From Ceratothoa steindachneri (taxonomy: Eukaryota > Arthropoda > Malacostraca > Isopoda > Cymothoidae), in contig OZ018329.1 of NCBI GenBank assembly GCA_963969495.1, forward strand, positions 67,971,660 through 68,035,659: a stretch of 64,000 bases of DNA, given 5' to 3'. Shown piece by piece: positions 27,295 to 40,603 of this stretch. The position numbers and the translations under genes were made by a program. The notes under the pieces were generated by a model. The model saw only the letters and a list, made by a program, of their open reading frames with translations, did not search any database and was not told the DNA's origin. Position 1 is the first letter of the stretch, and each line of letters starts with the position of its first letter.

Positions 27295-28240
27295 GAAAAA
27301 TAGGAAACAGAGAGTTGTACTGAATGGAGTGAGGTCAGAGTGGAGGAATGTTATTAGTGGCGTACCTCAGGGATAAATTTTAGGACCTTTATTATTTATA
27401 ATCTATGTAAATGATCTTGGGCAAGGTGTGAATAGCAAAGTATCAATTTTTGCTGATGACACTAAATTGGCAGCTGTAGTCAAAGAGGTTGAGGGTAGCT
27501 TTAAAGTGCAGGGTGACTTAAATAAGTTGTTAGCTTGGGCTCAGAAGTGGCAGATGACTTTTAACCTTAATAAATGCAAAGTTATTAACATGGGGAGAGA
27601 TAATAGGGAATTTAGCTATGAGATGGATGGGTATTGGTTTAATTCAGTTGAAGATGAGAAGGACTTAGGAGTAGTAGTAGATAGATGACTGAAATTTTCA
27701 AAGCAGTGTATTGAGGCAAAAAATAGAGCAAATAGGGTGCTAGGTTACATTAAGAGAAATGTTAGCTACAAGAGTAAGGAGGTTATCCTTAAACTATACA
27801 ACTCTTATGTCAGGCCACATTTAGAGTACTGGATACAGGAATGGTCACCACATTTTAGACATGATATAAACTTATTAGAGTCAGTACAAAGGAGGGCAAC
27901 AAAAATAATACCATCCCTGAAGCACCTTGAATATGAAGATAGACTGAGGGTATTAAATATGTTTTCATTTGAAAGAAGGTGTGTGAGGGGAGATATGATT
28001 GAGCTTTTTAAAATCTTTTCTGGGGTGGATAAATTGGATTTCAGCAAGTTATTTGAGTTAGAAGGTAGTAATAGAACTAGAGGCCACCACGTAAAGATTA
28101 AATATCAGAGGTGCAGACTGGATGTTAGAAAATATTTTTTGACTAACAGAGTGGTGGATTATTGAAATAGTTTGCCACCTGAGACTGTAGACAGCCCAGA
28201 CTTGAATGTTTTCAAGCACAGATTGGATGATTATATGGGG
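27295..28240 (+). pseudogene. CR1 copy 3 RT, C-terminal half
   Basis: RKQRVVLNGVRSEWRNVISGVPQG, then a stop, then ILGPLLFIIYVNDLG, FADDTKLAAVV (catalytic Asp pair intact), NLNKCKVINMG, KDLGVVVDR, stop, RNVSYKSKEVILKLYNSYVRPHLEYW and RRCVRGDMIELFK. The final block NRVVDY* has lost the following Trp. Three stops; otherwise only lightly decayed, suggesting a fairly recent insertion. Confidence 0.9.
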
Positions 28241-28815
28241 ATGGAGGGTTAATTTCTTACTTTCGGTATGTGGATATGTTTCTTGACTCATTCCTGTGAA
28301 TGCAGTTTCTTTTTATTGTATATTTTGGGGGACTTTGATTTTGTTTTTGACAGACTCCTATGGAGGCTTTAAATTATATATTGTAGATGCATGGTTGGAC
28401 ATTCCTATGGATTGTTAAATTGTATATTGTAGATGCATGATCTGACAAAATCCTATGGATGCTTTATGTGGGTGGATTTGATGGATACGGATGACCTTTG
28501 ATAGGCCCTTGTGGCTTTTGTCATCCGTGAAATTATGTTATGTTATGTTATCCTTCCACTCTGACTTTACACCATTTAGCACTACCCTTTGCTTCCTGTC
28601 TTTCAGCCACTCAGCTATCTAATTTGAAAGTCCTTCTTGTTTCTAAGATTACGAGCATTTGTATAGAAACAATTTAACCCTCCTATCCCTGAATCACCTC
28701 TTCCAACCTGAATGACCTCACCTCTATCCCCTTGGAACCTATTTGTTATCTGCCAAGTCCATTCTACTTTCAGTACTATAATGTCCTCTCATAATTCCCT
28801 GACCACTATTAGTAT

Positions 28816-31758: not shown

Positions 31759-31762
31759 ATGC
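31759..31762. repeat. 4-bp target site duplication ATGC (left)
   Basis: ATGC directly precedes the LTR (TGTAGCGGGCC). The matching ATGC is at 40600-40603, after CCACCACA. Four to six bp is the normal range for Ty3/gypsy insertions. Confidence 0.85.
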
Positions 31763-32552
31763 TGTAGCGGGCCGAAAAAATTTAGACTAACCCCAATCGA
31801 TCCAACCCGCTCCCTACACTAATCTGGACATGAGAAATCAAAGGAGAATGAAACGGATTGTATGTACAGTCCTTTACTAACAAAAAAATACAATATTTAC
31901 CAAAAACTATGGGTAAATATGTACAAAATATCTACAATAGAGAGGGGCGATTATATTGGAGATCTCCTTACTTTTCACCAAAAATTACAAAAAGAAAATC
32001 CTATATATATGAATACTATTTAATCTATCCTAATAAACATGAAAAATCAAACAACCAAAAAAAATCCTGACTACAACAGTCAATATATAAACAACAAACA
32101 AGGCCTCACTTTATTCAAAGAGGATGGGGAGATGTCCAGCCACCTGCCACTCGAGCGAGCAAAATGCCTAGGACTTACAACAAATGTGGCGCCTCTGCGC
32201 TTGATGGAAGATAATGACCTTAAAAAGCTTGCGTGGCTATTATAAGCCCTCCTTCATTAAGCTATACTATTGGCCTTTATTTATTAACAATAATAATATA
32301 TAGCTTTCCAGGATATAATGCTTTGTTTGTAATATAAGGATATACAAAACTAAGTCCTATCTTTTCAGAATATGGCGCCTGGAAAGAAAGAAAAAAAAAC
32401 ATGGTAATCATTTTTATACATAAAATAAACAAAAAACAACAAACCCATTCCCATTCAGACACACACACATTTTTACAGAGGAAGGGATAGGGTACTGAGA
32501 AAAGGGGTGGGAGAATGGCCCTTTTACACACACTCACATTCGCTCCACCACA
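31763..32552 (-). repeat. 3' LTR of the Ty3/gypsy element (790 bp)
   Basis: In element orientation it begins TGTGGTGGAGCG and ends GGCCCGCTACA. It is 46 bp longer than the 5' LTR because it keeps a block (about 31790-31838) missing from the other. A related solo LTR at 55150 also has extra sequence there, so the 5' LTR probably lost it. Confidence 0.93.
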
Positions 32553-32601: not shown

Positions 32602-33396
32602 TCACTCTTCATGGTACCACTTGTGCTCAATCGCACCCTTCTGCACCCATTCACACTCTTCTACTGGTCCCTGGCTACGCGTAGCAATTAGTCGTGGTTG
32701 TTCGTCAGTCATCCTGTCAGTCTCATCGTCACTATTGATCATCTCATCAACCATACTCTTAGCCCTCATTACCAGTTCTCCCATCTCACGACAGAATTCT
32801 TTCATACTCTTCCGTTCAGAACCCTCACTCTTCATACCCCCATTCATCAGCTCCTCACTCACAGCTCTCATCCAACTCAAGGTACATTCTTGCGAAACAG
32901 ACAGTTCACTCACATCCCCTGTATTCTCAACAGGCATACCAGAAACCCCTTCGACTGGTTCCCACCAGAAACCTGAAAAATCAGCCACTTCATCATTCAC
33001 TACATCAAACTCACCCCTACTATTACCATTCATAAAACCCGAAAAATCAGCCACACTAGGTTCATTCTGCCCAAACACACTATCATTCATACTGTTCCCA
33101 AAACCAGAAAAATCAGGCACAGGCAGCTCACTCACTCGTCTACTTATACCAGCCAAATCACTCACCTGTTTACGCAAAAACTCAATCTCCCTTTCAAGAT
33201 CCCCCATACCAGAAACACTCTGCTCAGACTTACTTTCATTCGTACTTGCATTCTTCCTTTCACTCTTCTTTGTACGCTTTCTACTCCTCGAGACTAAGAC
33301 TAGCTCTTTCCCAGACAGATCCATACTATCACATTCAATCTCATCATCATGCACTTTACCTCTCTCTCTACACAGTCCATACACTGGATGGCTCAT
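32602..33396 (-). CDS. Accessory ORF3 downstream of integrase, function unknown
   Basis: 264 codons, same frame as integrase, starting five codons after its TAA stop. Basic stretch RSRKRTKKSERK (residues 38-48) is NLS-like; residues 65-92 (LEREIEFLRKQVSDL) look coiled-coil. DFSGF occurs three times at residues 95, 117 and 139, exactly 22 residues apart, in an acidic, Ser-rich middle. The C-terminal part is helical and acidic with Met and Glu. There is no signal peptide or transmembrane segment, so it is not an envelope. Product could be an accessory or gag-like protein; no family recognised. Confidence 0.75.
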   Translation of the reverse strand: MSHPVYGLCRERGKVHDDEIECDSMDLSGKELVLVSRSRKRTKKSERKNASTNESKSEQSVSGMGDLEREIEFLRKQVSDLAGISRRVSELPVPDFSGFGNSMNDSVFGQNEPSVADFSGFMNGNSRGEFDVVNDEVADFSGFWWEPVEGVSGMPVENTGDVSELSVSQECTLSWMRAVSEELMNGGMKSEGSERKSMKEFCREMGELVMRAKSMVDEMINSDDETDRMTDEQPRLIATRSQGPVEECEWVQKGAIEHKWYHEE

Positions 33397-33411
33397 CAGG
33401 TAGTCAGGAGG

Positions 33412-34608
33412 TTATCTCCATCTCCTTAACTGACTCTGATGAGCCCGCACTCTCTCAGTCATACCGTCATTCAAACTCTCCAAAACATACGTCACCCCAT
33501 TTTCCCAAACCCTCGCAACTCTATAAGGTCCATCAAACTTCTCACTCATCTTTGACACATTCAACCTACCCTTCACTTCTTTCACCTTCAATACTTTTGC
33601 ACCTAATTCAAATGAATGGAACCTTTCATGCGCCTCACGCCATACATTCTGCTCACTTTCACTCAAACGAAACCTATCTTTCACTCGCCTTTCAAAATTC
33701 ATCACAAACTGACATGGGGACATTCCAGTTGCACTATGCACAGTTGAATTATACGCCCACAACACTCTCCCCAGACACACATCCCAGTCATTCACTGTCG
33801 TACTCATCATTCTCAACATCTCACACAAGGTTCTTATAGTCCGTTCAGCCAATCCATTTGAAGACGGTACATACGGAGTTGTTCTCACATGCTCCACACC
33901 ATTCTCTCTCAACATTTGCTCAAACACTTCCCCTACAAATTCAGGCCCATTATCACTCAGACATCTTCTAGGCTTCCATACACACATAGGAAAAAACAAC
34001 TGCTCAACCACACGCGCAACAGTCACACTCCTTTTATCTCTCACAGGCGCTGCATACACAAACTTACTTTTATGATCAACTGTAACAACCATACCAACAT
34101 TCCCAGCACTTGTACGCGGCAAAGACACACAATCAATCACTACCAATTCAAACGGTTCTTTCGCATCAACTTTCAACATCGGTGGTTTCACTTGCACACC
34201 TTGCACCTTTCGCTTCTGACACCTTTCACACGTAGTTGCAACATCATTCACAACAGTTCTCAGAAATGGATGGAACACACGCTCCTTCATACACTCCCAC
34301 AGCTTAAACTTACCCATATGCCCATAATTATCATGCACAACCTTCACCAGACCAATCATACGAACTAAGGACATCACAGGTACATACATATCATCACCAC
34401 CCTTCACATGCCTCACAAAATATACAACATCCATACAAACAACAAAATCCTTAGCATACCTTTTAAAATCACTTAAACACTCTGGCCATTCATTCAAATC
34501 AACACACATCATTACACACCTCTTCAACTCACTAACAAAAGGACACATCTCTTGCATCTCTAGAATATCATCATCACTTAAAATCTCATTCTCATCATCC
34601 ATGACCAA
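33412..34608 (-). CDS. Ty3/gypsy integrase
   Basis: HHCC zinc domain: H92-x4-H97 and C127-x2-C130. DDE core: D159 (VVIDCV), D219 (CLSDNGPEF) and E255 (GLAERTIR), with 35 residues between the last two, all present. C-terminal GPY/F module near residue 350 (KFDGPYRVARVW). About 398 codons, normal length with an acidic N-terminal extension. Same frame as the upstream ORF but separated by a single TAG (34609-34611); the frame itself opens at TTG, the first ATG being two codons later. Joins element DNA to the host genome. Confidence 0.95.
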   Translation of the reverse strand: MVMDDENEILSDDDILEMQEMCPFVSELKRCVMMCVDLNEWPECLSDFKRYAKDFVVCMDVVYFVRHVKGGDDMYVPVMSLVRMIGLVKVVHDNYGHMGKFKLWECMKERVFHPFLRTVVNDVATTCERCQKRKVQGVQVKPPMLKVDAKEPFELVVIDCVSLPRTSAGNVGMVVTVDHKSKFVYAAPVRDKRSVTVARVVEQLFFPMCVWKPRRCLSDNGPEFVGEVFEQMLRENGVEHVRTTPYVPSSNGLAERTIRTLCEMLRMMSTTVNDWDVCLGRVLWAYNSTVHSATGMSPCQFVMNFERRVKDRFRLSESEQNVWREAHERFHSFELGAKVLKVKEVKGRLNVSKMSEKFDGPYRVARVWENGVTYVLESLNDGMTERVRAHQSQLRRWR

Positions 34609-35712
34609 CTAAATCATGCCACAAAATTTGACAACATTCTTCGCACACTCATTCAACTTCATCACCTCACATTCACCTTTCATAAGACAATCCTTATCAG
34701 CATCCAAAGACAAATCATTTAATCTCATAAAGTCTACACCAAGCAAGAAACAACACGGCATTTGCTCATCCTTCAGAATCACAAAGTCATGCTTCACATT
34801 CACACCATTACCCAAACTCACTTTCAGACTAACCTGTTCCCATGCCACTATCAAGCCATTCCCTAATCCACTTATCCGTAACTTCACAGGTTTATGCTCG
34901 CAACATTTAAACTCATCATACTTACTCAGAATCCTCTCATTCACTAAAGACACCTGCGCTCCAGTATCAATCAAACCACAGAACAACCTTTCACCAACTT
35001 TCACTCTCGCTTCCATCATATCAGGTCCACCGTGTTCGCAATAAACCGAAGGAACAAGCACACCAACATCAGCACTGATATCCACACTGTCATTAACTCC
35101 CATATCACTCACCACACACTCATCTTCATCCAGACAATCATTCTTCTCTCTTATATATGAACACTTTTCAATCACCCAATTGTAGTGCACACCACTCAAA
35201 CATTGCAGATGTACCACATTAGGATTCAAACCCTTCATCTTCTCATCCTTGTACACAATCGGCCTCTCACCACCAAAGTGCACATAAACAATCACTCCAT
35301 ACAAATGACTCACTACAATCAACACTTCTTGAAATGGCGGGACCCCTTGCATACACATTGCTCTCAATTCTTTCATGAAGTTCCGCACCTTTGCCATACC
35401 AATGCTTTCAGGCTTCCTACACACTTCATTCATTACCTCCTTCCTTAAATCATCCACACTATTGGGCACTCTCACATCTACTCCATCACTCTTTAAATCT
35501 TGCAAACCATTCCATACACTCTCAAACAAGGAATCACCACCACCCTTACTCTCTTTTCCATTCATAATCCCTTTCGGCAAATACTCAGGATCACTCACTC
35601 CACACACATTTTCATCATTCGTACCAGGATACCTTGACATCAAATCAGCCACTCCATTCCGTTCACCAGGCACATACTCAATCACATAGTCAAAGTCACT
35701 CAAATCCTCCAA
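34609..35712 (-). CDS. RNase H tail, OTU-like domain and second retropepsin
   Basis: Residues 1-30 are the last RNase H/tether part (YVIEYVPGERNGVADLMSRYPG). Residues about 57-185 resemble an OTU cysteine protease: GGGDSLFESV at the nucleophile site (Ser where Cys is usual), VVSHLYGVIVYVHF as central strands, and CLSGVHYNWV with the catalytic His. Residues about 230-345 form a second retropepsin: LIDTGAQVSLV (DTG at 249-251) and LLGVDFMRLNDLSLD (ILG-type block). Stop is TAG, then integrase in the same frame. Removing the 65-bp insert puts this ORF in the pol frame, so it belongs to pol. Confidence 0.85.
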   Translation of the reverse strand: MEDLSDFDYVIEYVPGERNGVADLMSRYPGTNDENVCGVSDPEYLPKGIMNGKESKGGGDSLFESVWNGLQDLKSDGVDVRVPNSVDDLRKEVMNEVCRKPESIGMAKVRNFMKELRAMCMQGVPPFQEVLIVVSHLYGVIVYVHFGGERPIVYKDEKMKGLNPNVVHLQCLSGVHYNWVIEKCSYIREKNDCLDEDECVVSDMGVNDSVDISADVGVLVPSVYCEHGGPDMMEARVKVGERLFCGLIDTGAQVSLVNERILSKYDEFKCCEHKPVKLRISGLGNGLIVAWEQVSLKVSLGNGVNVKHDFVILKDEQMPCCFLLGVDFMRLNDLSLDADKDCLMKGECEVMKLNECAKNVVKFCGMI

Positions 35713-35718
35713 AGTCCA

Positions 35719-35783
35719 GGAGCTGCCAAGTGTAGGCCATGAATGGTCTTTTGCAGTCTCCTTCTTTTCTTATGTTCTTATGT
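35719..35783 (-). repeat. 65-bp dispersed repeat inserted in RNase H
   Basis: On the minus strand it runs from ACATAAGAACATAAG to GGCAGCTCC; 62 bp are identical to 22551-22612. Its length (65, not a multiple of three) exactly accounts for the frame change between pol and the next ORF, and it brings the stop that ends the pol ORF. Confidence 0.9.
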
Positions 35784-37958
35784 AATCCTACTATCAGCCC
35801 ACTTCATACGCTGCAGATACACAAGAGGTTGATGATCCGTTTTTATCACAAACCTCACACCATACAAAAATGGACGCAACACTTTCAAACAATATCTTAT
35901 CGCAGCCAGCTCTCGTTCCACAGTCGAATACTTTCGTTCTGCAACATTCATAGCCTTGGATACATACCCAATTATTCGCCTGACATTCTCTCCATTCAAA
36001 CGCTGCTCTTGCATCAGAAAACCTCCCATACAATACCCACTCGCATCTGTATACAGTTCAAGCATTTTAGCATTTACACTATAATCTGGGTAAGCCAATT
36101 CAACATCTTCAGCCGCTGCCTCTTTCAGTTCCTCATATGCCTCATTCATCTTATCATTCCACCTGTTAACCGTACTACCTTTCTTGCCCATCCACTCAGT
36201 CAGAGGCTTACTCACACCAGAACAATCACGTATAAACTTTCGCTGAAACTCAATCAAACCCCAAAACGACTTCAGTTGCTTCACAGTCACCGGTTTAGGA
36301 AACATTCGCACCTTCTCAACATACTTTGGTGATTTTCGCAACCCATTCTCACTCACCATATGCCCAAAGAATTCCACTTCTTTCGCAAACCATTCACACT
36401 TCGCCACTTTCACTTTCACACCAACACTCTCCAACGTTCTCAACACGTCATTCACCAATCTCATATGCTCCTCAAAAGTCTCAGTCATAATCAAAATATC
36501 ATCTATAAACGCAATCACATTCTTACTCGCAAACTTACTCAACACAACATTCATTGCCCGCTGGAAGGCTCCGGGAGCATTAGCCAACCCAAAGCTGAGG
36601 TTCCGGAACTGGTAATGCCTCTTTGAGGAAGAGAAGGCAGTTACCAGCCGGCTCTCCTCAGCAATGGGCATCTGGTAATACCCCTGTACCAGATCCAACT
36701 TCGTAAACCACTCTATCCCATGCATACTATACACACACTCAGATACCACACACATCGGAAACCTTTCTTTCACAGTCTTTTCATTCACCTTTCTATAATC
36801 CACACACAGACGCAATCTTCCATCCGGCTTACGTACAGGTACAATTGGACTATTCCATGCACTCTCGCTCTCTTCAATCACCCCCAATTGCTCCAATTCC
36901 AAACACTGCTCCTCAATCTCATCAGCAACCGGACGTGGGAAATGCCTCGGCCGCTGATAGATTGGGGAGTCCTCCTTCAGGACAATCTTGAATTCTGGGA
37001 GCTTTGCAACCCCAAAATCCAGATCACCCTTACTGAGGGCTCCCTTTCGCTCAAATATCATTTGATACACATCCTCCCTTTCATACTCAGTCAAACATCC
37101 ATCCAATTTCACCATGTCCTTCACCTCATTATACATCCATTCACATGTCTTTTTATTCGCAACATTCACCCTGATATCCGTACTATCATCCATACCTACC
37201 TCATTGACAGTGGAGAGGTGGCCCAGTACATCTCCGACTTGGATTCCCCTCACCTGCCCTTTCACACTGGGGTCCGCCTGCACACATACAAAAGGATCAT
37301 TCATTCTCATCAAGCCATCAAACACACAAGCAACACGCCTTACCTTATAACACGCATCCTTTCCATCCAATATCACAGTGTTCTCACTCACATCCAAACT
37401 AACATCCTTACTCCAACTCACTCTAACAGACACCCTTTCACCCTTCACAAGCCTTACATTCTCCATAGCAGTCACCTCAATACCAGTAAACACACTCCTC
37501 AAAACGCTACCATCTTTCCCTACATACAACTTATACACCCCATTTTTACCAATCTTTCTCTCAATCTGATCACTCGCAGGATGCACAACCATACGATTCA
37601 TTTTCATAAAATCATACCCCAAAATCACACCATACTCACTACTCACCTTATCAATCACAGAAAATTCACATTCATTCATCATCATACCATGCATTCGAAC
37701 AGCTGACCTTATCATTCCAATCACAGGCACTCTCCTATTACCAATACCTACCAAACTACCCTTGCACTCAGACAGGAGGGCTTTCTCGCTAACCTTGTCA
37801 TACACATCTTTATACACCAAGCTTGCCTTGCATCCAGAATCTATTAAAGCCAAACACTCAATTCCATTCAACTCCACCTTCACAATCAGACACTCATACT
37901 TCCTACCAGACAGCACTTTCACACTAGACAGACTTACCAACACATTACTCACACTCAT
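35778..37958 (-). CDS. Ty3/gypsy pol: protease, reverse transcriptase, RNase H
   Basis: 726 codons from the first ATG; the frame is open further upstream across the gag stop, so real entry is probably by frameshift at 38000-38006. First retropepsin: LALIDSGCKASLV (DSG at 40-42) and VILGYDFMKMN. RT about 330-540: LRLCVDYRKVN, FTKLDLVQGYYQ (D422), FGLANAPGAFQR, AFIDDILI (D486, D487) and FFGHMVS. RNase H from 630: LYTDASG (D638), ERELAAI, KTDHQPLVYL (D708). Catalytic residues are intact. The ORF is cut short by the 65-bp repeat. Confidence 0.95.
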   Translation of the reverse strand: MSVSNVLVSLSSVKVLSGRKYECLIVKVELNGIECLALIDSGCKASLVYKDVYDKVSEKALLSECKGSLVGIGNRRVPVIGMIRSAVRMHGMMMNECEFSVIDKVSSEYGVILGYDFMKMNRMVVHPASDQIERKIGKNGVYKLYVGKDGSVLRSVFTGIEVTAMENVRLVKGERVSVRVSWSKDVSLDVSENTVILDGKDACYKVRRVACVFDGLMRMNDPFVCVQADPSVKGQVRGIQVGDVLGHLSTVNEVGMDDSTDIRVNVANKKTCEWMYNEVKDMVKLDGCLTEYEREDVYQMIFERKGALSKGDLDFGVAKLPEFKIVLKEDSPIYQRPRHFPRPVADEIEEQCLELEQLGVIEESESAWNSPIVPVRKPDGRLRLCVDYRKVNEKTVKERFPMCVVSECVYSMHGIEWFTKLDLVQGYYQMPIAEESRLVTAFSSSKRHYQFRNLSFGLANAPGAFQRAMNVVLSKFASKNVIAFIDDILIMTETFEEHMRLVNDVLRTLESVGVKVKVAKCEWFAKEVEFFGHMVSENGLRKSPKYVEKVRMFPKPVTVKQLKSFWGLIEFQRKFIRDCSGVSKPLTEWMGKKGSTVNRWNDKMNEAYEELKEAAAEDVELAYPDYSVNAKMLELYTDASGYCMGGFLMQEQRLNGENVRRIIGYVSKAMNVAERKYSTVERELAAIRYCLKVLRPFLYGVRFVIKTDHQPLVYLQRMKWADSRIT

Positions 37959-37996: not shown

Positions 37997-39730
37997 TCAG
38001 TTTCCCACTTCAGACTTTCCATTCACACCTTGCGCTCTCAGTCTAATCCAACACTTTTCACTTGAATGTCCTTCCATCGCACAATAGCTACATACATTCC
38101 TCTGGTCACGACACATCCTTGCATAATGACCAGCCTTTCCACAATTACCACATGCATATTTCATACTTTCCCCACCAGTTGCTCCACCATTCAACCTCGG
38201 ACAATCTTTCTTCAAATGGCCTATTTCTTTACACTCGAAGCACTCTTTCACACTTTCCTGGCAATCCTTTATCATATGCCCTTTCTTACCACACCCAAAA
38301 CATGCACCAGATGTCCACCTACATTCTGCCAACATATGACCTTTCCTTCCACACCGACGACATTCCACAATCTTTCTCCCACCATTCGGTCTCTCGTTTG
38401 CTGGGACATACCTCGGCTTCTCTCTCATATATCCGTTCCCACGCTTGAAATTCATCTGCCCCCTTCCATTCGACCACCCTCCATTTGCCCATCCATTCTG
38501 CCGGCCCAGGAAGTTTGACATCACTCCAGCTGGTGCAGCCTTCAGGGCATCCCTGTAGCTGACAAACTGCTGGGGTGGATGAAAGCTCCTGGGCTTCTTA
38601 CCTCCAACATTCACACTGTACCATCCATCCTCTTCTAAATCGCTTTCATCATCAAATCGTCCATCTTCTAACAGTTCCAACACATCCTCCCACATCAACC
38701 GTTCACCTGTCAGTCTCACTCTCTCCTTTCTCTTTCCACTCAGCCATTCACTCACCTTTCGCGGGATCGTGTCCAAAAACTTCCTCATGAGTGGTTTACA
38801 TTCATTTACATCATCATCACCATACCTCGTTCTTGCCATACTCTCAAGCCTATGTGCATACATATTCACACTTTCACTCTTCCCCATTCGAGCCTTCTCA
38901 AATTCATTCACCCTTTTATACTTCACACTCTCTTTCATTCGTTTCACCTGCCCAATCAATCTCTTCTTCACTACATCGTACTTTGGCTCCCCCACACTTG
39001 TGATCACACGGAAAAACTCCAATACTTTTCCCTCCAAACATTCCCCCAAAACATTCATCCAGTATCCCTTATTCTCCGGGTACTTGAGCTTACAATAACG
39101 CTCAAATTCCCCGAAGAATTCTTCCATACTTTTCCCACCATGTAACCTAAATCGATCTATCTTTGGCACTTCCCTTATCAAAATACCTTTCCCCACATTC
39201 ACTTCACTCTCCGAAGAGCTACTCTCGGTCTCACTCATTCCAATCATACCATCACTCTCTCCTTCATCCGAGTACAATGAGTCCACACTCTTGCCTCTTA
39301 CCTTCCTATCCTTCCCCTTTGCACCACTCTTCCTTCTCTTGCGTTCAACTCTCTTCCATTCTCCGTCCTTCCTACCACTCACCGTATCTTCTTTAGACTC
39401 AATCCTACTGCCATCCATTCCTTTTAGCAGAGTCCCTTCAGTAAGAGCAGGGGTCAAGGTTGTAGGTCCTGGGGCTGATCCAGCCCCTGTCATCATGTTA
39501 TACAGGTCCTGCATCCGTCGGTCCGTCTGATCCTGTCGGTCCGTCTGATCCTGTCGGTCTCCCATTTCCTTCTTCATCCTATCAGTCTTTTCATTCATCC
39601 CTTTTATTTTATTCTCCATTCCCTCCATCATTCCCCGCAACATTTCACACTCCTCTTCTTTCTTTCTCAACTCCAGTCTCAATCGCACTACTTCTTCATT
39701 CAATGTTTCCGCTACAGCCATTATTCCCAA
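37997..39730 (-). CDS. Ty3/gypsy gag with five CCHC knuckles
   Basis: 577 codons. Residues 8-70 are coiled-coil (LRLELRKKEEECEML), followed by a short DRQDQT tandem repeat and a Lys/Arg-rich linker. The capsid-like gag domain at about 190-350 has FGEFERYCKLKYPE and LEGKVLEFFRVI. Five CCHC zinc knuckles lie at residues 457-470, 477-490, 497-510, 527-540 and 547-560, more than the one or two usual in Ty3/gypsy gag. Ends at TGA right after GGGAAAC. The leader between PBS and ATG is about 105 bp. Confidence 0.95.
   Translation of the reverse strand: MGIMAVAETLNEEVVRLRLELRKKEEECEMLRGMMEGMENKIKGMNEKTDRMKKEMGDRQDQTDRQDQTDRRMQDLYNMMTGAGSAPGPTTLTPALTEGTLLKGMDGSRIESKEDTVSGRKDGEWKRVERKRRKSGAKGKDRKVRGKSVDSLYSDEGESDGMIGMSETESSSSESEVNVGKGILIREVPKIDRFRLHGGKSMEEFFGEFERYCKLKYPENKGYWMNVLGECLEGKVLEFFRVITSVGEPKYDVVKKRLIGQVKRMKESVKYKRVNEFEKARMGKSESVNMYAHRLESMARTRYGDDDVNECKPLMRKFLDTIPRKVSEWLSGKRKERVRLTGERLMWEDVLELLEDGRFDDESDLEEDGWYSVNVGGKKPRSFHPPQQFVSYRDALKAAPAGVMSNFLGRQNGWANGGWSNGRGQMNFKRGNGYMREKPRYVPANERPNGGRKIVECRRCGRKGHMLAECRWTSGACFGCGKKGHMIKDCQESVKECFECKEIGHLKKDCPRLNGGATGGESMKYACGNCGKAGHYARMCRDQRNVCSYCAMEGHSSEKCWIRLRAQGVNGKSEVGN
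38000..38006 (-). promoter_or_regulatory. Slippery heptamer GGGAAAC for -1 frameshifting
   Basis: On the minus strand the gag frame reads G-GGA-AAC-TGA, the X-XXY-YYZ pattern, and pol is open in the -1 frame across this point. Nine bases after the heptamer AGAGG (37990-37986) can pair with CCTCT (37969-37965), giving a possible stimulatory stem. The same heptamer serves gag-pro frameshifting in some simian betaretroviruses. Confidence 0.85.
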
Positions 39731-39855: not shown

Positions 39856-40599
39856 TGTAGCGGGCCAAAAAAATTTAGACTAAATCGAAGGAGAATGAAA
39901 CGGATTGTATGTACAGTCCTTTACTAACAAAAAAATACAATATTTACAAAAAAATATGGGTAAATATCCACAAAATATCTACAATAGAGAGGGGCGATTA
40001 TATTGGAGATCTCCTTACTTTTCACCAAAAAATACAAAAAGAAAATCCTATATATATGAATACTATTTAATCTATCCTAATAAACATGAAAAATCAAACA
40101 ACCAAAAAAAATCCTGACTACAACAGTCAATATATAAACAACAAACAAGGCCTCACTTTATTCAAAGAGGATGTGGAGATGTCCAGCCACCTGCCACTCG
40201 AGCGAGCAAAATGCCTAGGACTTACAACAAATGTGGCGCCTCTGCGCTTGATGGAAGATAATGACCTTAAAAAGCTTGCGTGGCTATTATAAGCCCTCCT
40301 TCATTAAGCTATACTATTGGCCTTTATTTATTAACAATAATAATATATAGCTTTCCAGGATATAACGCTTTGTTTGTAATATAAGGATATACGAAACTAA
40401 GTCCTATCTTTCCAGAATATGGCGCCTGGAAAGAAAGAAAAAAAAACATGGTAATCATTTTTATACATAAAATAAACAAAAAACAACAAACCCATTCCCA
40501 TTCAGACACACACACATTTTTACAGAGGAAGGGATAGGGTACTGAGGAAAGGGGTGGGAGAATGGCCCTTTTACACACACTCACATTCGCTCCACCACA
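39856..40599 (-). repeat. 5' LTR of the Ty3/gypsy element (744 bp)
   Basis: Matches 31763-32552 with about 11 substitutions and one indel of about 45 bp. Begins TG and ends CA in element orientation. An AATAAA (minus strand, 40328-40323) is a candidate poly(A) signal, and a TATATATTATT lies just upstream of it. Confidence 0.94.
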
Positions 40600-40603
40600 A
40601 TGC
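40600..40603. repeat. 4-bp target site duplication ATGC (right)
   Basis: Partner of 31759-31762. Beyond it the CR1 RT sequence resumes. Confidence 0.85.

Follow-up and report, generated by a model that had tools for sequence, protein, structure and literature searches.

The element and the order of its Pol domains

The window analysed here, a 64-kb stretch of the Ceratothoa steindachneri genome, held one long terminal repeat (LTR) element on its minus strand, running from 40599 to 31763 (Table 1). Paired LTRs, a short target duplication and the order protease, reverse transcriptase (RT), RNase H and integrase were found, and by these hallmarks the element is a Ty3/gypsy LTR retrotransposon. 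Two domains were added between RNase H and integrase, namely a domain with a predicted OTU fold and a second retropepsin (PR2). Together with the unbroken copies and relatives described below, the data show that Pol in this Ty3/gypsy lineage reads first retropepsin (PR1)-RT-RNase H-OTU fold-PR2-integrase-C-terminal part in one frame. The initial annotation of this stretch had proposed both added domains from their motifs, and both proposals were borne out by fold or profile matches.

The motifs were placed in the open reading frame (ORF) 35769-34609. GGGDSLF stood at residues 76-82 (35544-35524) and GVHYN at residues 193-197 (35193-35179), followed by LIDTGA at residues 266-271 (34974-34957) and LLGVDFM at residues 342-348 (34746-34726). 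PR1, with a DSG triplet, lay in its normal place before RT, as the annotation had stated, and exceeded two Pfam cutoffs (PF13650, 28.1 bits, cutoff 24.3; PF09668, 32.1 bits, cutoff 26). An insert in RNase H disrupts the window copy, as do two in-frame stops (ORF ends at 34609 and 33412), which split the RNase H tail-OTU-PR2, integrase and 269-amino acid (aa) ORFs within one shared frame. The insert was copy-specific, being missing from the translations of the genomic copies L002, L004, L005, L006 and L008, and the breaks belong to the window copy. The motifs of the original description stood, and the description was corrected for the insert, the two stops and the further 269-aa part. The insert itself resembles a dispersed short repeat.

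The LTR pair showed 12 mismatches in 744 aligned bases (98.4% identity). An extra 46 bp was seen near the end of the 3' LTR, missing from the 5' LTR. An empty site was also found: the flanks of the element, when joined, matched the repeat copy 27510-28270 over 762 columns at 90.6%, and they matched a third repeat copy (26031-25309) at 79%. From the empty-site match it follows that the element inserted once, as a single piece. The interrupted repeat appears LINE-like (resembling a long interspersed nuclear element), judged by the look of its ORF.

Table 1. Features of the element, with positions in the window
Feature	Position	Strand	Basis or detail
5' LTR	39856..40599	minus	744 bp
3' LTR	31763..32552	minus	790 bp
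Target-site duplication GCAT	40600..40603 (5' side) and 31759-31762 (other copy)	minus	
gag ORF	39766-37997 (from ATG 39721: 37997..39721)	minus	ATG read from sequence
G GGA AAC heptamer	38006-38000	minus	Sequence; directly before gag stop
ORF PR1-RT-RNase H	38009-35778	minus	
PR1, first retropepsin (DSG)	37608..37883	minus	Residues 43-134 of ORF 38009-35778
Reverse transcriptase (RVT_1)	36357..36836	minus	Residues 392-551; PF00078 E 6.2e-29
RNase H main part	35784..36161	minus	Residues 617-742; PF17917, PF17919
Insert interrupting RNase H	35716..35780	minus	Short, limits approximate
RNase H tail	35632..35715	minus	Alignment with P0001, P0002, P0004
ORF RNase H tail-OTU-PR2	35769-34609	minus	386 aa stop to stop
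OTU-fold domain (predicted)	35152..35580	minus	
OTU site codons	Ser80 35532-35530; His195 35187-35185; Asn197 35181-35179	minus	
PR2, second retropepsin (predicted)	34672..35022	minus	DTG at residues 268-270
Integrase	33865..34347	minus	H2C2 34347-34204, rve 34161-33865; ORF 34608-33412
C-terminal extension of Pol	32605..33411 (ORF 33411-32602)	minus	269 aa after integrase, same frame

The OTU-fold domain, its Ser-His-Asn site and the second retropepsin

The OTU fold was supported by a predicted model, a Foldseek search and a VIA-align comparison. A 27-row profile matched OTUD3 (E 5.2e-4) and OTUD5 (E 1.6e-3) in the PDB, and the RNase H part of the same profile matched Ty3 in PDB 7q5b. At the level of the predicted model, the domain between RNase H and integrase is thus confirmed as having an OTU fold. 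The Pfam search of the window copy gave no match for the OTU part. In the viral predicted-structure library (BFVD), iridovirus OTU proteins were among the 50 matches listed for the OTU model; no named retroelement was among these 50, several of which were nameless. The OTU model also matched baculovirus VP80 capsid proteins in BFVD (A0A0E3URQ5, Q80LL6 and W5VLA4; E 1.5e-3 to 3.6e-3).

In the 27-row alignment (A3), which excludes P0006 and P0028-P0030 and was built before P0031-P0033 were found, the nucleophile column was Ser in 23 of 23 lettered rows (4 gaps). His and Asn were each found in 20 of 20 lettered rows (7 gaps), the rows being 22-59% identical to the window ORF. The catalytic His, followed at +2 by the Asn/Asp position of OTU proteins, aligned with OTUD3 and OTUD5. 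An OTU cysteine peptidase carries Cys in its DGxC motif; because all 23 lettered rows have Ser there and the nucleophile test fails, the predicted domain cannot be filed in that class. Five of the 135 columns holding 18 letters or more were invariant (S80, G142, Q189, H195 and N197), and three of these five make up the predicted active site. The chance of the three named columns falling within five of 135 is 2.5e-5, relatedness of the rows being ignored. In the own genome, Ser was present in all 48 loci L001-L048 (TCC in 8, TCT in 40), and all 48 fit a pattern demanding His and Asn; these loci represent 43 places, five having been entered twice, with the window included. The annotation had considered the domain perhaps inactive, since Ser replaces Cys. 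Ser is fixed alongside His and Asn across the aligned family, and is therefore a family character and not damage.

PF02338 was used to seek a sister of the Pol OTU with Cys in the own genome and gave 42 other matches. From 25 of these loci (L051-L075), 19 had a readable nucleophile motif (18 Cys and 1 Ser, L073) and 6 were off-pattern. The loci read belonged to a different repeat, mostly with stops, carrying DGNCLF and HYDV, and were rejected as sisters. This repeat is presumably a Helentron, although no Pfam match of that kind was obtained with the neighbouring ORF in L052. A canonical Cys-type OTU is thus present in this genome, in another repeat, and the Pol OTU forms a separate branch of the Ser type.

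PR2 of the window copy remained below the Pfam cutoffs (RVP, 19.9 of 20.7 bits; gag-asp_proteas, 20.7 of 28.2 bits). In the relatives it exceeded the gag-asp_proteas cutoff (P0031, 35.4 bits; P0032, 33.1 bits) or the RVP cutoff (P0033, 21.3 of 20.7 bits). The closest PDB match of a five-row PR2 profile was to the retropepsin-like domains of DDI1 (E 1.1e-6). A three-row PR1 profile likewise matched DDI1-type proteins first (E 1.6e-6), and DDI1 as a special link of PR2 to ubiquitin was dropped, since this PR1 control gives the same match. The D-T/S-G triplet was present in 14 of 16 lettered rows of alignment A6. Within the own genome, D-T-G-A of PR2 occurred in all 48 loci L001-L048, and L081 has D-I-G instead. 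These profile matches and the kept triplet indicate that the predicted second retropepsin is real. The annotation had named a missing OTU or retropepsin match as grounds for rejection; the OTU part matched by fold and PR2 by profile, the model of PR2 itself being poor.

PR1 and PR2 profiles aligned over 112 columns with an hhalign probability of 96.5% (E 9.1e-10, from few sequences). Identities were 34-42% among three PR1, 39-52% among five PR2 and 15-25% across the two groups. As the cross identity lies below both within-group identities, PR1 and PR2 were separate before the compared lineages split. The word "duplicated" in the annotation fits the alignment of the two profiles, but the split is older than the compared lineages, and PR2 could also have been acquired.

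Copies, relatives and selection

When the OTU piece was compared with the own genome (3.93 Gb), 7,349 first-look candidates were obtained. The best 150 were scored, a sample biased towards good copies; all showed 98-100% identity with no stop within the OTU piece, and 30 of the 150 rows had an open frame with a length of exactly 1,782 aa. One such copy had PR1 near the frame start and the C-terminal part at the end (97% identical to that of the window), its flanking stops giving 1,782 codons. L002 and L004 were open over the whole 1,150 codons, and L005, L006 and L008 had stops elsewhere. The element is abundant in the 3.9-Gb genome, and the arrangement therefore belongs to a successful lineage.

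Database relatives were collected as 7 proteins, then 24 listed (one already known), then 3. The unbroken P0031 (1,761 aa) held PR1 at 32-124, RT at 388-547, RNase H at 613-748, the OTU motif to His-Tyr-Asn at 798-918, PR2 at 981-1073, H2C2 at 1199-1244 and rve at 1259-1357. P0032 (1,235 aa) had the same order and ended in H2C2 (25.0 bits, cutoff 25.5), its PR1 being recognised by motif and alignment without a Pfam stretch of its own. P0033 spanned the OTU end, PR2 and integrase. Full-length relatives, which the annotation had proposed to look for, share the two added domains, and the same order stands in P0031 and P0032. It had also allowed that relatives might lack the segment, making this copy a chimera of two elements; the segment is present in the relatives, and the empty site marks one insertion.

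A second own-genome family, with a 1,706-aa open frame in many rows, carried RNase H-OTU-PR2 in the loci read. P0005 gave 81 matches in the own genome, the nine best 34-47% identical; later matches at 31-33% included window-family copies. Four pieces from the best P0005 rows all contained the RNase H tail and OTU, and PR2 was present in both pieces that reach far enough (L078 and L081). Scans of IMG/VR with P0014, the window ORF and alignment A4 gave no relative, and none was found in bacterial and archaeal genome contigs scanned with P0014.

The ratio of nonsynonymous to synonymous substitution rates (dN/dS, NG86) was 0.13-0.14 for the RNase H tail, 0.28-0.29 for OTU, 0.38-0.45 for PR2 and 0.30-0.40 for linker plus PR2. 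It was obtained from three pairs of the window family (L002, L004) with the second family (L013, L015, L023). With dS at 1.0-1.3, or 1.7-2.3 with the linker, synonymous sites are fairly saturated and these ratios are rough. At the sequence level, the comparison shows that the predicted OTU-fold domain predates the divergence of the compared families and that, with its Ser-His-Asn site, it is kept by purifying selection. The extra module as a whole (OTU fold, Ser-His-Asn site and second retropepsin) is stable and under purifying selection.

Further features were seen in and around the element. The gag ORF had five CCHC zinc-knuckle patterns near its C-terminus by pattern, with four Pfam stretches; five is more than is known for Ty3/gypsy Gag. 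The G GGA AAC heptamer is in register for a candidate -1 ribosomal frameshift from gag into the pol frame. The C-terminal extension gave no Pfam match and aligned to the P0031 tail (26% over 188 columns, E 2e-5). Repeated DFSGF-like motifs were observed in it, and it may represent a remnant of Env, a tether or something unrelated. Outside the element, ORF 29319-28816 (minus strand) matched the GDSL-like lipase/acylhydrolase family PF13472 with 40.8 bits (cutoff 32.9). It adjoins a 221-aa Cys-containing ORF (29974-29309) without Pfam match, and this region looks like part of another mobile element.

Possible roles and comparison with known systems

Our best explanation overall, to which we give a probability of about 0.5, is an established Pol segment whose OTU domain acts as a serine-type hydrolase on ubiquitin, a ubiquitin-like modifier or the polyprotein. 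Cleavage by PR1, PR2 or both would free the OTU domain from its place after RNase H and before integrase in the polyprotein. The freed domain would engage ubiquitin, a ubiquitin-like modifier or a polyprotein tail via its active-site cleft and may act there as a serine-type hydrolase, by which ubiquitin-dependent loss of Gag-Pol, integrase or the particle could be prevented. The annotation had suggested that the added domains might counter host ubiquitin-based restriction. PR2, which has a DTG of its own, probably acts as a retropepsin dimer on a separate set of cleavage sites, or may pair with PR1. The narrower claim, that an OTU deubiquitinase has turned into a Ser-His-Asn hydrolase and that one Pol holds three proteases, one of a catalytic type not known to us for the OTU fold, is made tentatively.

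A pseudo-deubiquitinase, whose non-catalytic OTU fold binds ubiquitin or a ubiquitin-like modifier and recruits or shields the replication complex, is a possible reading that falls short of probable. The replacement of Cys by Ser and the loss of the DGNC Asp agree with it, and Cys-to-Ser OTU mutants serve as inactive binders, but His and Asn were invariant in 20 rows at 22-59% identity, a constancy that binding alone would not require. A serine-type hydrolase is slightly favoured over such a binding-only enzyme, since His and Asn show the same strict conservation as Ser. Silicatein, which is held to be active, provides a precedent for a natural Ser in place of Cys. It is quite unlikely that the OTU fold merely aids the folding of Pol and that PR2 is a leftover duplication. 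PR2 is indeed under weaker constraint than the RNase H tail (dN/dS about 0.4 versus 0.13), and its triplet is altered in P0005 (DTS) and also not kept in P0009; however, the predicted active site accounts for three of the five OTU columns without variation, and PR2 keeps DTGA in 48 loci and passes Pfam cutoffs in relatives. Compatible with either OTU reading, and somewhat unlikely, is a PR1-PR2 heterodimer, in which protease activity would depend on the second copy, which would not serve a second cleavage set. Retropepsins act as dimers, and D-S/T-G is retained in both copies, whose profiles can be aligned over 112 columns, but each could homodimerise. We give practically no weight to an artefact (a chimera of two elements, an assembly error or chance motifs), suggested by the insert and two in-frame stops of the window copy. 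It is ruled out by the target-site duplication and empty site, by the 150 scored OTU copies at 98-100%, by the same order in P0031 and P0032 and by the fold and profile matches.

Several points weigh against the serine-type hydrolase and the established segment. PF02338 stayed below its cutoff in all proteins scanned (best E 0.036, in one of seven members of A2) and gave no match in P0031-P0033. An OTU-only seven-row profile found OTU chains in the PDB only at E 0.4, equal to unrelated chains, and the single window ORF found DDI1 and no OTU chain; both searches are weaker than the 27-row profile. Gly replaces the Asp of the canonical DGNC motif. The protein search works through shared five-residue words, a possible bias towards relatives with Ser, and only best matches are represented among the genome loci. 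In the four diverged-family pieces, His was kept in all four, Ser in three (Leu in L078) and Asn in three (Ser in L081, which has stops), so that the site is lost in some diverged copies. In addition to the altered PR2 triplets of P0005 and P0009, P0022 has no PR2 after OTU, and PR2 showed a low predicted local distance difference test score (pLDDT) in both AlphaFold models. As far as we know, clan CA-type sites with Ser are inactive more often than they are active, and active Cys-to-Ser changes are rare. SERA5-type papain-like proteins keep a Ser site without clear proteolysis.

The element would show that LTR retrotransposons can capture a fold of the ubiquitin system as a stable part of Pol. 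It also offers a natural test of whether the OTU fold works with a serine nucleophile, and it prompts the question of why two retropepsins are retained in one retroelement.

The element resembles Ty3/gypsy (Metaviridae) in its LTRs, 4-bp target-site duplication, CCHC gag, PR-RT-RNase H-integrase order and H2C2 plus rve integrase. It differs in the OTU fold and the additional retropepsin that separate RNase H from integrase, and in the long C-terminal part after integrase. The Pol OTU shares with OTUD3, OTUD5, Otu2 and the nairovirus vOTU the predicted fold and the order nucleophile motif-His-Asn/Asp, but unlike OTU deubiquitinases it has Ser for Cys and Gly for the DGNC Asp and sits in a retroelement Pol. 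No description of OTU in a Ty3/gypsy Pol was found in the titles and abstracts of the literature searched, a search that was incomplete. The passages of PMC2642776 consulted do not contain the terms 'second protease' or 'two proteases', and PMC11943222 describes a gene with an OTU domain. According to PMC2836005, Ginger1 transposases carry a C-terminal OTU or Ulp1 domain and OTU also occurs in Helitrons; PMC6431247 describes OTU in Helentrons and other extra domains in the giant gypsy-like Burro elements. Ginger1 and Helentrons resemble our element in having OTU on a mobile element, in Ginger1 beside a gypsy-type integrase. They differ in being DNA transposons and, in Ginger1, in the position of OTU C-terminal of the transposase. 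The Ginger1 transposase is not known to include PR, RT or RNase H. The OTU fold is part of a replication polyprotein in tymovirus PRO/DUB and nairovirus vOTU, with a Cys nucleophile, in RNA viruses without retropepsins. Silicatein and SERA5 have a natural Ser for Cys in a clan CA-type Ser-His-Asn site, in a papain and not an OTU fold; one is held to be active and the other is disputed. The lentiviral dUTPase is an extra domain at the same Pol position, between RNase H and integrase, with an unrelated fold and function and no second protease beside it.
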